Shown here one piece after another: positions 37,988 through 43,172 of a stretch of 64,000 nt of DNA. The stretch is taken from assembly GCA_025041175.1 (NCBI GenBank), contig JAKCFJ010000003.1, positions 186,001 to 250,000 of the forward strand. Direction: 5' to 3'. The stretch comes from Halobacteriales archaeon YIM A00010. Its GTDB lineage: Archaea > Halobacteriota > Halobacteria > Halobacteriales > Haloarculaceae. The position numbers were made by a program, and so were the translations under genes. The first letter of the stretch is position 1. Every line of letters starts with the position of its first letter. The notes under the pieces are model-generated. The model saw nothing but the letters and a program-made list of their open reading frames with translations. It ran no database searches and had not been told where the DNA came from.

Positions 37988-38404
37988 TCACGGCTCGAAG
38001 CCGCGGTTTTCGATGAGACGGACGGCAATCTCTTCCGGACGTACCCGCTCTAGAGCGAGTTCAATGAATGCTTGGTCAATCTCGTACCGCTTGTCATTTC
38101 TCACGTTGTATTCGTGCTTTAGGTGACCTTTGGCGTCGTGCATCTGATCTTCGTAGCCGAAGACCTCCGATTCTTTGAAGAACATCGCAAACTGTTCACG
38201 GTCCCAAGATGGTGGGCGACTATCGGCGATCTTATCGGCTTGATCCTGTGCAGCGTCTGTTTCTACTTCTTGGAGCACCGCCTTCGACGGTTCGGACGGG
38301 GGTTCCTCACGTTCTTCGGATTGATCCTTGGGGGTTTTCGGTTGGTGTTCCGTTCGTGTTCCTCCGTCGGCTTCCTCCTCGACAAACTCATCGAAATCAC
38401 TCAT
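37988..38404 (-). CDS. ParA partner protein (unknown family)
   Basis: This 138-residue protein has a long acidic, disordered N-terminal half (EEADGG... EEREEPPSEPS) and a basic, helical C-terminal third (KRYEIDQAFIELALERVRPEEI). It overlaps the parA 3' end by 8 bp, so it is translated together with ParA. By position it is the likely centromere-binding or adaptor partner, as ParA operons usually encode one. I do not recognise a ParB domain. Confidence 0.65.
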   Translation of the reverse strand: MSDFDEFVEEEADGGTRTEHQPKTPKDQSEEREEPPSEPSKAVLQEVETDAAQDQADKIADSRPPSWDREQFAMFFKESEVFGYEDQMHDAKGHLKHEYNVRNDKRYEIDQAFIELALERVRPEEIAVRLIENRGFEP

Positions 38405-39320
38405 TGGTAACACCTTCGCGTTCGACGATGCGAGCCAATTCGTCCAAGTGCTCGAGCGTTAATCGGTCGTTTTCACTCACTGAATCCTGTGATTCGACGT
38501 ACCGACCGAACGGCACTTTCTTCTCTTCTAACGCGTTCTCGAGATTCGAGTTTTTGCGCATTCCGGGTTTTGGAACCTCGACCTCGCCGTCGTCGATGGC
38601 GTCCCACTCTTTCGGTGGGATCCGGGCGAACGAAGGGAGATATTTCGCAAACGTATCTGATCGATTCAAGCTTTCGAGTAGCCGTCTATCTGCCTTATCG
38701 TGTTTGATGTACTCGCTTATCATGTTAGGAACTATTGCGAGGATTCTGAAGTTGAGCTCGTCGGGCATCTCCTGGACCACCCGCTTGTAGGTCCGTTTGA
38801 ACCCCGACCGATTCATGTCACCCGGCGGAATCGGAATGATCGTTCTCGCAGCTGCCCCGTAGGCTGCCTTTGCGATGTGGCTCCACTCACCACCGCCGTC
38901 CATGATGATGTAATCGTACCTGCCGTCGTCGAGGAGCGTCTGGATGAAGTTCTTCTTGAGGAGGGTGATACTGTTCTCACTGAGCTCGCTTTCGAGCGTA
39001 CTGAGCTTGACTGAAGCGGGAACGAAGTCCCACTCCCAGTCGGTGGGGTAAATGTACTCCTCGTATTCGCCGTATTCGTGGATAACAATGTTCGTGAGGT
39101 CGTGCGTTGGGTCGGCGAACACGTCCGCATACCCGAGGCTTTCGGTTATGTGCCCGTTCGGATCGAGGTCCATGAAGAGGACATCGTGTCCGCGTATAGA
39201 GAGTCGATCCGCGATATTAAGCGCAAGAATGGATTTTCCGACGCCACCTTTCAGCATGTTCACGCTAACGGCTTGGCCAGTAATCGGTTCAGCTTCTTCC
39301 GCAGGGGGCTTGGTTGTCAT
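38397..39320 (-). CDS. parA: ParA-family partition ATPase
   Basis: This 307-residue protein has the deviant Walker A KGGVGKS (K24 to S30) with the signature lysine, FMDLDPNGHITESLGY (switch I/II region) and YDYIIMDGGGEW as Walker B. ParA/Soj ATPases segregate plasmids and chromosomes. I take the ATG at 39320. Immediately upstream lie the tandem repeats at 39440-40040, the expected place of a centromere. The gene probably repeats the layout ATPase, partner, centromere of low-copy replicons. Confidence 0.92.
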   Translation of the reverse strand: MTTKPPAEEAEPITGQAVSVNMLKGGVGKSILALNIADRLSIRGHDVLFMDLDPNGHITESLGYADVFADPTHDLTNIVIHEYGEYEEYIYPTDWEWDFVPASVKLSTLESELSENSITLLKKNFIQTLLDDGRYDYIIMDGGGEWSHIAKAAYGAAARTIIPIPPGDMNRSGFKRTYKRVVQEMPDELNFRILAIVPNMISEYIKHDKADRRLLESLNRSDTFAKYLPSFARIPPKEWDAIDDGEVEVPKPGMRKNSNLENALEEKKVPFGRYVESQDSVSENDRLTLEHLDELARIVEREGVTNE

Positions 39321-39439
39321 GGATGGAAACGGCGGCAAGGGCTACTGGAATCGTTCATCTATTGCGACCAACTTTCGGACGACTTTGGTGCCGCACAGTG
39401 ACGTAATGATCCGGTTTAAAAATAAAGCTTTGTCAGACA

Positions 39440-40040
39440 TAAGTCAGCTAAGTGAGATTAGATTGCTGTCCCAGCGTACGTTGGCGACTTGGCTCCGTTT
39501 GTAGACTTCGTTCAGTGAGCTAAGTTAGCTGAGTCTGCTGACTTAGCATAGCTGGCTAAGTTAACTGTCGACTGATGGAGTAGCTCCCGATCATGGAGCA
39601 GCCGGCCAACTGAGAACAGGTCGTTATCCCAGCATGCGTTGGTGGGGTGGCTGTATTAGTGAACTTTGTTTGGTAGACTGAGCTGGCTGAGTCTGCTGAC
39701 TCAGCATAGTTAGCTACGTTAGCATGGTTGGATCAGTTCTCATTTATGGATCAGCCGACCGAGTCAGAACAGGACGCTGCCCCAGCACACATTGGTCACT
39801 TGGCTCTGTTGGTTAACTCCGTTTAGAAGGCTAAGTCAGCTGAGCCAGCTAACTCAGCACAGCCTGCTAAATCAGCTGTAGTCCGATGGAAAGTTCTCGT
39901 TCGTAGATCAGCCACCCGAGTGAGGAGGGATCGCTATCTCAGCACACAGTGGTAGCATGGCTGTATTAGTGAGCTTTGTTTAGTAGACTAAGTCTGCTAA
40001 CTCAGCTAACTCAACACAGCCTGCTAAGTCAGCATAATCT
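39440..40040. repeat. putative centromere: four ~155-bp tandem repeats
   Basis: Four degenerate repeat units start near 39463, 39621, 39773 and 39930 (CCCAGC/CTCAGC landmarks at 39470, 39628, 39781 and 39938; period 153-158 bp). Each unit holds a ~50-bp block of short inverted words of the CTAAGTTAGCT / GCTGACTTAGC type (39518-39567, 39675-39723, 39829-39878 and 39986-40033). A stray copy lies at 39441-39455. There is no gene. Next to parA this looks like a partition site bound by many protomers. Confidence 0.8.
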
Positions 40041-40230
40041 GGTGGGGTGCCCCTCATTTATAAAACTCAAACGAATATCTCCGCTCAGTCGGAACGGCTT
40101 TCCAACCGCCGAGCGGCTGAAAAAGTCCTCACCGGTGATAGTCCGGGAAGCACCACGGATCGTATCGATGTAGTTGCTATGACCACGGACCATGCGTTGG
40201 GGGAGACGTTACCGACGTTCCTCATAGTAT

Positions 40231-40303
40231 CTTAGCTCCATTAGCAGAGTTAGCAGACTTCACTCAGCGGACTAAGTTAACTGACTCAGCATAGCCAGCT
40301 ACG
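40231..40303. repeat. satellite block of the centromere repeat
   Basis: CTTAGCTCCATTAGCAGAGT, then CTAAGTTAACTGACTCAGCA, reproduces the core word block of the tandem repeats, about 200 bp beyond the array, just before the P450 3' end. Confidence 0.7.
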
Positions 40304-40415
40304 TTCGATAACTCGTTTATGAAACCCAAACGTTTTTTCGCGTTTGGTCTGCTCACCCTCCTTTGGCCACCCAGCGGAGAGATTGATGTCGGACGCCGAT
40401 CCATCGGACTCTTCG

Positions 40416-41765
40416 TCATTCTACGACGCTTTCTTTTTCAACCACCATCTCGATCAGGTCGGTTGGCCGCGTCGTTATGGACGCAGTGACGTTCAATGGG
40501 GCGTCCGAAACCAGTCCCAAGGAGACTCGTTGTGCGATTGTTGCGAGTACGAGTTTCATCTCGACCAGGGCGAATTGTTCGCCGATGCACCGCCGCGGTC
40601 CGCCACCGAACGGGAAATACGCGAACTCGGGCCGCTCGGCGTCACGCTCGTCCGACCAGCGTTCGGGGCGGAACTCGTCTGGATCGTCGTAAAACCGCTT
40701 GTCGTGATGGACCACCCACTGTGGTATTGTTATCGTCATTCCCTCGGGGACAGTGTAGCCGTCGATAGTCACGTCCGTCACTGGTTCCCGACCGGTTCCC
40801 CATATCGGTGGATAGAGACGCAGCGATTCCGTGAGTATCTGCCCCGTGTACTCGAGATCCGATAGCTGATCCACCGTTGGCGTCGCGCCGTCCAAAACGG
40901 CTGCAAGCTCAGCACGAAGTTTTCGCCGCACATCCGGATTTTTCGAAAGCAGATACCACGTATAGGTGAGCGCCAGCGCGGTCGTCTCGTGGCCCGCCAG
41001 CAGCAACCCGATGATGTTATCGCGCAGCTCCGTCTCCGATAGTTCTGTCCCTTCCCGGTCGGTGCCAATGAGTATCGACAGGAGGTCATTGCCGTCTTCG
41101 TTCGTTCGCCGCCGTTCCCGGATGAGGTTCTCGATCAACGAGTGCAGGTCGTTCGTCGCTCGTTGAAAACGACGATTGGCAGGCGTCGGCACCCATTTCG
41201 GGACGACAGTGCTCAACTGCGAGTAGTCCGTCTGTTGTGACAACGCATCCACCGCGGCGCGCACGATGGACTGATCCTCACGAACGTTATGGTTGAACAG
41301 CGTCTTGGCGAGGATCGCCAACGTGAGTTGGCTCATCTCACGCACGATATCGACCGTCTCCCCCACGGTCCATCCTTCGACCGTCTGTTCGGCGTCCGTC
41401 ACCATCGTTTCAGCGTAGGTCGTGATTTGCTCGCGGTAAAAGCCCGGTTGGAGCTGCTGGCGTTGGCGTTGCCACGTACGTCCTTCACTAACCGAGAGCG
41501 ATTCGTCCTCGACACCGCTGAAAGCGTCTCGTCTGAGATCGCCGGTGGTGAACGTGGAATTCTCGGTAACGAGTACTTGCTCGATATGATCCGGATGGGT
41601 GAGCACGTACGTCGGTCGGCCAGGAAACTGCAGATACGTGATGTCGCCGTATTCACTCGCCCACTGTTCGAGCGCAGCGAGTGGATCGCGCATGAACGGA
41701 AGCGAGTTCCCGAGAAGCGGCAATCCCGTCGGACCGGGAGGTCGTTCGAGCGTGGACTGTGCCAT
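40416..41765 (-). CDS. cytochrome P450
   Basis: This 449-residue soluble-type P450 contains the I-helix oxygen motif AGHETTA (about 257-263), the K-helix ESLR (about 316-319), PERW in the meander region and the heme-ligand loop [13 protein letters not shown] (about 389-401). It is a monooxygenase for a hydrophobic substrate that cannot be named. No ferredoxin reductase is adjacent. It is divergent from the Bat-like regulator at 41927, which probably controls it. Confidence 0.95.
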
Positions 41766-41926
41766 CAGTACGCACCTCCCAGGGGTACGATACGAGTGAA
41801 TCCCTCTTTCTGTGATCGTGTCGTCAGTGGTGACATCATCTATAGAAACGCTCGATGATTCGAAAGCTCTATTCTGTTGTATGCGAACTCGTTTAAGTTC
41901 GTGCGTCGAATCGTCGATGAATATTG

Positions 41927-42595
41927 ATGGTCTCCGAACATCCGGCGATGCGGCACGTGACGATCACGATGCGGCCGACGAGCGGATATTTCCATCCAGT
42001 CGACCGCCAACTCGCGGATGCCCCGGACGTTACCCGTGAGGCCATCCATCATTTTGAGTTGTTGGACGATGGCACGCTCGCACTGTTAGCGAGCGTACGA
42101 GGGAACATGAAGCGGTATCGGGACATCTTGGCTGCGTCACCGGAAGTGATCGAGTTCGCGGTTGCTGGAACACACGAAGGAGTCGGCTACAGCCAAGTCG
42201 AACCGAACGAGTTGAATCTTCATCTCATCGAACAACAACGCTCGTCCGAGTTCATTGTACAGATGCCCGTTGAATACACGTCGGATGGCGGTCAGCGAAT
42301 CACCATGATTGGGACGGCTGGCTCATTCGTGGACGCGAGCGCCGATTCACCGCAAGGCGTTGACGTAGAGATCGAAGAGATCGGTGAGTACCATCCGACG
42401 ATGAACCATCTCTTTGCCCGCCTTACGGCGCGTCAACGGGAGGTATTGGAGAAAGCCATCGAGGCGGGATACTACGAGAATCCTCGACGAACGACGCACG
42501 AAGAGATCGCGGAGCCCCTCGATATCACTCCGGGATCAGTCGGTCAGCACTTGCGCAACATCGAGGCGACGGTGTTCGGCCAATATCCGCTGTAG
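41927..42595 (+). CDS. HTH-10 (Bat-like) regulator
   Basis: This 222-residue protein has an N-terminal sensory region (about 1-155) and the C-terminal HTH-10 domain: LTARQREVLEKAIEAGYYEN then TTHEEIAEPLDITPGSVGQH. The ATG at 41927 is preferred to the adjacent TTG. The divergent 161-bp gap to the P450 gene holds both promoters, which suggests substrate-responsive control of the P450. Confidence 0.88.
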   Translation: MVSEHPAMRHVTITMRPTSGYFHPVDRQLADAPDVTREAIHHFELLDDGTLALLASVRGNMKRYRDILAASPEVIEFAVAGTHEGVGYSQVEPNELNLHLIEQQRSSEFIVQMPVEYTSDGGQRITMIGTAGSFVDASADSPQGVDVEIEEIGEYHPTMNHLFARLTARQREVLEKAIEAGYYENPRRTTHEEIAEPLDITPGSVGQHLRNIEATVFGQYPL

Positions 42596-42708
42596 TGGCT
42601 CTGTCGAACCATTGGCACGTGATAGGAGTAATGAACGCTGACGACACTATTCCCGGACCTATCTGGAACGATTGTGTGTCTGCAACAAACACAGCTCTCG
42701 CTCGAATT

Positions 42709-42781
42709 GTTAGCTAGGTTAGTAGGCTTTGCTCAGTTGGCTAAGCTTACTAACTTAGCATAGTCGGCTAAGTTAGCTATA
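42709..42781. repeat. distant satellite of the centromere repeat
   Basis: GTTAGCTAGGTTAGTAGG followed by GGCTAAGCTTACTAACTTAG and GGCTAAGTTAGCTATAG has the same words as the array at 39440-40040, 2.7 kb away beyond the P450 and Bat genes. The remainder of 42596-43172 shows nothing else. Confidence 0.7.
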
Positions 42782-43172
42782 GATCATTCTGTCTGTGTTT
42801 TCGTCGAGTGCGCTCGGACACGGACACTTCCGTCTCCAGGCCGATACAGCAACGATCCCCACGAGGCTTTACACCTGGACACGAATAGAGCAACATGCAG
42901 GTGACCGCATCCATGACAACAGGATTGGTCCCGGCCAATCAGACGACGTATCGTTACATGAATCGTGTCCGGGTGTATTGCTGCTGACGCGGCGACAGTC
43001 ACCCGCGGACGAGTAGACTACTCCGGAGAAATCATCTGTCAACTGCACAGCTGTGTGATTTTGTGTTTGAAAAACTGCTGGCTTTCGAGCCGTCCCTGCT
43101 CATCCGTCCCTTCGCCTGCAGGCCAGCCGTTATCCGCGTGGAGGCCCTCGTTCCTATGGAGGTGCGATACGC

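Follow-up and report, generated by a model that had tools for sequence, protein, structure and literature searches.

A conserved 9-bp word lattice upstream of haloarchaeal parA genes as a candidate centromere and operator

The locus analyzed here is best explained as a ParA-type partition system in which an unannotated partner protein coats replicon-addressed lattices of 9-bp words, these lattices acting as both centromere and operator. We put the probability of this reading at about 0.78. The locus lies in a window of 64,000 nucleotides, the whole stretch of DNA that was analyzed, which belongs to contig C3 (930,865 bp) in a haloarchaeal genome of 5.97 Mb in seven contigs. Haloarchaea are polyploid and have several large replicons per cell, and the system bears on how they hand these replicons to daughter cells. 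The rows of words are probably the handle by which each DNA molecule is recognized and moved at division.

Lattice blocks and genes of the window locus

The features of the locus are given below in window coordinates.

27400..28689, plus strand: Orc1/Cdc6 gene, with a Cdc6_C match at C3:214360-214644 (window 28360-28644)
37988..38404, minus strand: partner protein, 138 aa, overlapping the 3' end of parA; proposed centromere-binding protein
38397..39320, minus strand: ParA-type ATPase, 307 aa, with Walker-A motif KGGVGKS and Pfam matches to AAA_31 (2.3e-20) and CbiA/ParA
39422..39448, minus strand: promoter-proximal element GCTGACTTATGTCTGACAAAGCTTTAT, two words beside a TATA-like box; proposed operator
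39424..39581, no strand: tandem unit 1, lattice block about 39511-39569
39582..39734, no strand: tandem unit 2, lattice block about 39669-39727
39735..39891, no strand: tandem unit 3, lattice block about 39822-39880
39892..40045, no strand: tandem unit 4, lattice block about 39979-40037
40227..40303, no strand: fifth lattice block, outside the tandem units, found by pattern score and sequence-model match (recovered by repeat search at 40235-40314)
42709..42781, no strand: remote lattice block, score 18/20, sequence-model E 8e-9 (recovered by repeat search at 42704-42783)

A first-pass annotation of this DNA had described four units with a 153-158 bp period and further blocks at 40231-40303 and 42709-42781, the last 2.7 kb away. 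All of these were recovered and the coordinates were right. The four diverged tandem units upstream of parA start at 39424, 39582, 39735, and 39892 (spacing 158/153/157), and their copies are 66-76% identical to the reference copy. The remote block 2.7 kb away lies past two genes that separate it from the fifth block, one for a cytochrome P450 (40416-41765) and one for an HTH_10 regulator of the HVO_0513 type (41924-42595). The blocks had been described as about 50 bp of alternating CTAAGT and AGCT words. The blocks are real, but self-match within them has its maxima at lags 9, 18, 27, and 36, and they are more exactly a lattice in which the palindromic pentamer CTNAG recurs every 9 bp with 4-bp spacers, as in CTAAG TTAG CTGAG TCTG CTGAC TTAG CATAG CTGG CTAAG.

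A 41-bp pattern of five CTNAG words, with a maximum score of 20, reached 17-18 at the main blocks, whereas the rest of the 64-kb window gave no score above 13, and the upstream 9-bp periodicity at this locus exceeded 200 of 200 dinucleotide shuffles (z = 17). The blocks are therefore not due to chance. Six block positions in the window were matched at E <= 6e-4 by a sequence model made from window and orthologue blocks, of which the window blocks are themselves part. Each lattice block has five or more words, and short-repeat centromeres, a kind already known in bacteria, have at least four contiguous repeats near the operon.

The window ParA is an ordinary member of the ParA family. The haloarchaeal family profile matches solved Soj/ParA structures at 8.5e-31, and KGGVGK, a deviant Walker-A motif of the form KGGxGK, is conserved, as expected of ParA/Soj proteins. 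The view that this ParA operon encodes an unrecognized partner held up, the 138-aa protein having no match in Pfam or NCBIfam searches. A profile search found exactly four partner genes in the host genome, one beside each of its four parA relatives, and the four pairs use four different words. The Orc1/Cdc6 gene lies some 10 kb from this locus and is genomic context outside the lattice.

Recurrence of the lattice at haloarchaeal ParA loci

ParA orthologues 82-88% identical to that of the window are found in Halegenticoccus, two Haladaptatus, Halocatena, and Halococcus. The CTNAG lattice is present upstream of parA in all five (score 16-19 of 20), and the window and the five orthologues (6/6) also retain a promoter-proximal element in which GCTGACTTATGTCTGAC precedes a TATA-like TTTAT; its copies upstream of parA in L022, L023, L024, L025, and L216 differ slightly. 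The 155-bp tandem repeat was absent from the four orthologues tested for it. Since the orthologues share the lattice and the operator-like element without the 155-bp tandem, these two are the conserved elements and the period is local. As judged from sequence comparison, a local tandem duplication accounts for the 155-bp period, and the conserved feature is the 9-bp CTNAG lattice.

A broader survey covered 86 loci, namely the window, its three paralogues, four orthologues, and 78 further ParA relatives taken from class-level genomes with ParA similarity as the sole selection criterion. In the 1 kb upstream of parA, identical 5-mers numbered 877, 818, 478, 442, and 462 at lags 9, 18, 27, 36, and 45, compared with roughly 70-200 at other lags in the same regions, and coding sequence had only the ordinary multiples-of-three pattern. 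The 9-bp periodicity was above all 200 dinucleotide shuffles at 63 of the 86 loci and was not significant by this test at the other 23. Control lags of 7, 8, 10, and 11 rose above all shuffles at 1, 2, 1, and 3 loci, respectively; lags 6 and 12, having 18 and 36 among their multiples, are not clean controls. Most of the signal comes from the 750 bp upstream of parA (17-24 per 1000 versus about 1 at control lags); it is strongest in the 250 bp directly upstream and near background past the partner gene, in a positional profile computed without bins containing runs of N. One 9-bp repeat, L017:4647-4801, was rejected as coding, being the acidic repeat of a partner gene. Across the 86 loci, parA and partner genes are usually on the same strand with a small overlap or a few-base gap, and an acidic partner was recognized in 77, the layout of a ParA operon.

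The idea of a centromere-like array is thus well supported by comparative evidence, but its regular spacing is not what defines it, since the orthologues lack the tandem unit and block spacing at 50 non-redundant loci showed no convincing excess at 155 bp over random placement; 155 bp as a general rule is rejected. The first-pass annotation had suggested searching other haloarchaeal replicons for ParA next to such words and had considered the design little known among archaeal centromeres. The search was productive, with a 9-bp lattice upstream of parA at 63 of 86 loci and words differing by locus, and the design is not rare but recurs across haloarchaeal ParA loci.

Conservation also bears on whether the repeats are neutral satellite DNA or chance low-complexity sequence. 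The 155-bp units are indeed diverged tandem duplicates, as a satellite would be, but orthologues of other genera carry the same word lattice, and the 9-bp rule holds with unrelated words upstream of most haloarchaeal parA genes. As the main explanation this is refuted by conservation, and we give it next to no probability.

Some observations concern the spread of these loci. The plasmid-type parA of L083 and L094 (about 290 aa) has near-constant length and identity to the query (7-287, 36-37%) across several haloarchaeal families, in over 20 genomes, a recurrence that, on sequence similarity, suggests a widespread recent mobile replicon. No viral relatives were found in IMG/VR with closer ParA queries, and the ParA family profile retrieved generic ParA only.

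Divergent words and their distribution over contigs

The lattice words diverge between loci. The window locus has CTNAG, the C2 paralogue ACWGT, and the two C6 paralogues CCTNAGG-like and TGATCACA words; CACCTATTG-, CTACCTNAG-, GCTATTCA-, and TACATTATG-type words occur at others. Word similarity correlates with identity of the partner C-terminal domain (Mantel r 0.60, 0/2000 permutations) and with ParA identity (Mantel r 0.66, 0/2000 permutations). Since ParA and partner identities are themselves correlated (r = 0.83), this is silent on which protein reads the words, and shared ancestry could be the source of the correlation.

For the window word and the C2 word, most matches fall on the contig that has the cognate parA; the bias is counted by contig, and contigs may not equal replicons. 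When practically the whole of C3 was scanned, only the par locus, 228.7 kb (window 42732), and 546.5 kb gave pattern scores of at least 16, and sixteen control pieces from C4 and C1 (320 kb) contained no score of 15 or more. With the window-word model, all matches at E < 0.02 were on C3 except one C1 site that reads as coding (C1:1552678, set aside since a small open frame encoding Glu-Ser-Ala repeats seems to begin there); an additional weak 24-bp site was found on C4. For ACWGT, 38 of 43 pattern matches were on C2, as were 21 of 23 matches of the C2 sequence model, and a control pattern gave 0. Remote ACWGT sites that look intergenic are located on C2 at 2.1, 225.9, 441.6, 447.3, and 1001.3 kb, and a match of the C2 word at C3:711868 was discarded because it falls within a permease-like reading frame. 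All 13 matches to the G271 word were on the contig of its parA, including two at distances of 285 kb and 16 kb. As models R1 and R2 were partly built from loci that they rediscover, the independent evidence consists only of the remote sites, which are few: one far out on C3, five on C2, and two in G271.

At the C2 paralogue (L018 4385-4563, C2:213.4-213.6 kb), the operon has ACWGT lattices on both flanks, one set downstream of the partner gene and the other covering about 1.2 kb upstream of parA. A separate dispersed repeat was also seen on C3 and C1. It is MITE-like, 112 bp long, with inverted terminal repeats ACACC(T/C)GGACACGAAT...ATTCGTGTCCGGGTGT, and lies at window 42867-42979, with copies, mostly 91-96% identical, at about 312.9, 332.5, 355.7, 393.0, 398.1, 414.3, 546.7, and 912.5 kb on C3 and about 2709.6 kb on C1. 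Two of the copies are 80-90 bp from the two remote blocks, at window 42709-42781 and C3:546.5 kb, a proximity that may be coincidental.

Partner family, alternative explanations, and proposed mechanism

The partner proteins begin with an FDDL-type N-terminus, followed by a very acidic linker and, at the C-terminus, a domain of about 75 residues. The N-terminal motif F-[DAG]-[DEG]-[LFVI] is present in 72 of 76 members. Relatives, among them WP_010890437.1 of pNRC100, are annotated "hypothetical protein", and members were found in 13 of the 196 genomes sampled from the phylum, all 13 in the same order. The family has no credible match in Pfam, NCBIfam, PHROG, or PDB. A search of 34 partner proteins found no ParB-type domain such as that of the HTH/CTPase ParB in ParABS systems, and no Pfam ribbon-helix-helix (RHH) match was found among the partners. 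Aligning the partner profile with a haloarchaeal RHH profile in hhalign gave a probability of 0.15% (positive control 99.8%); assignment of the partner to the RHH proteins is not supported by these profile comparisons, though it may yet belong to them. AlphaFold models, made from few input sequences, were of low confidence (pLDDT 50 for the whole partner and 62.5 for the domain), and a fold search with them against the PDB gave no match.

Could the lattice be an operator array for autoregulation of parA only, with any centromere elsewhere? The signal peaks in the 250 bp upstream of parA and the conserved word pair abuts a TATA-like box, as such an array would, but one promoter needs no blocks nearly 1 kb upstream, 2.7 kb away, or between genes hundreds of kilobases off. 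The two roles are also compatible, since in TP228 ParG coats parH and also represses its operon, one protein serving operator and centromere (PMC7308502). We consider an operator alone unlikely. It is extremely unlikely that the lattice is instead a replication-origin element, made of iterons or ORB-like sites bound by Orc1/Cdc6. In its favor, the window has an Orc1/Cdc6 gene about 10 kb off, and in pNRC100 and a Haloferax plasmid the distance from the par locus to orc/cdc6 genes is no more than about 4 kb. However, the lattices are directly upstream of parA (in a survey that was anchored on ParA), and a genome-wide lattice search found no match near the window orc gene or the other twelve Cdc6_C loci. 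Lattice matches fall at par loci or remote intergenic sites and none is at the Cdc6_C genes, beside which the ORB array of an Orc1/Cdc6 origin would be expected.

The first-pass annotation had proposed a partition complex that loads at several sites and spreads. Comparative evidence supports the loading at several sites. Spreading is neither required by this reading nor supported. A clamp-type (CTP-dependent) or otherwise spreading ParB-like partner would be consistent with several separate loading blocks on one replicon, but we consider it very improbable, given that no ParB-type domain was found in the 34 partner proteins and that arrays of contiguous words characterize coating systems that do not spread. 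The contiguous lattices suggest side-by-side coating.

We therefore return to a coating partner as the preferred reading, in which the locus would serve a large haloarchaeal replicon as its ParA-type segregation locus. The 138-aa partner would be made along with ParA and would bind the CTNAG lattice, molecules on neighboring words lying side by side, with one cooperative loading site per block of about 5-8 words. The centromere would then comprise several parA-adjacent blocks, the block at 2.7 kb, and the block at about 320 kb on the same contig, near and far blocks loading separate complexes on one replicon. Since words stand next to the promoter, which the block nearest parA overlaps, the same partner is expected to repress the operon. 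Nucleoid-bound ParA, stimulated by the partner, would capture the coated lattice and its ATPase cycle would move the replicon, so giving the system its segregation function. Contact with ParA is most likely made by the conserved FDDL-type motif on the acidic N-terminal tail. Replicons sharing a cell, by using different words, would each be addressed separately. More tentatively, and at somewhat less than even odds, haloarchaea may have a family of replicon-addressed centromeres whose 9-bp lattices, both close to parA and scattered across the same megaplasmid, are read by a new-fold family of DNA-binding partners, with word specificity diversified so that at least four systems coexist per polyploid cell.

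One close likeness is to TP228 ParF-ParG-parH, which has a ParA-type ATPase, a small partner with a flexible N-terminal tail, and a centromere of short, degenerate boxes with short spacers (PMC7308502). The TP228 boxes are tetramers with AT-rich spacers, whereas here pentamers recur every 9 bp; ParG is an RHH protein with arginine-finger tail motifs, whereas the partner has an acidic tail and no detectable RHH similarity; and the accessible part of that source describes no replicon-wide remote blocks such as those seen here (PMC7308502). The delta-omega-parS system of pSM19035 likewise has contiguous short repeats, bound by the small RHH-type ParB omega, but these are 7-bp heptads in either orientation rather than 9-bp palindrome-centered words (PMC9499535). 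Full activation of ParA there takes four or more heptads in a row (PMC9499535), and the main blocks here have at least that number of words. Among archaea, Sulfolobales SegAB shares a ParA orthologue, an overlapping small partner gene, and sites upstream of the operon, but it is a chromosomal system in which SegB is an RHH protein that recognizes imperfect palindromic motifs, not long lattices (PMC12284271). AspA-ParB-ParA of Sulfolobus pNOB8 also segregates an archaeal plasmid with a sequence-specific DNA-coating protein, but it has three proteins, and AspA, of winged helix-turn-helix fold, binds one 23-bp palindrome and spreads (PMC5120986). We found no haloarchaeal description of the 9-bp palindromic lattice, the partner family, the different words per cell, or the dispersed blocks in the open-access papers searched; subscription papers were mostly outside the scope of this search and priority is not established.

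The shared lattice rule supplies concrete candidate sites, a candidate binding protein, and a means of typing replicons by word. Direct testing is possible in the model strain Halobacterium NRC-1, whose plasmid pNRC100 shares this layout, with a GCTATTCA lattice filling the 300 bp upstream of its parA relative. On this plasmid (NC_001869.1), the lattice of the parA relative occurs twice, in opposite orientation, at about 66.2-66.4 and 157.0-157.2 kb, so that pNRC100 carries two copies of the candidate centromere.
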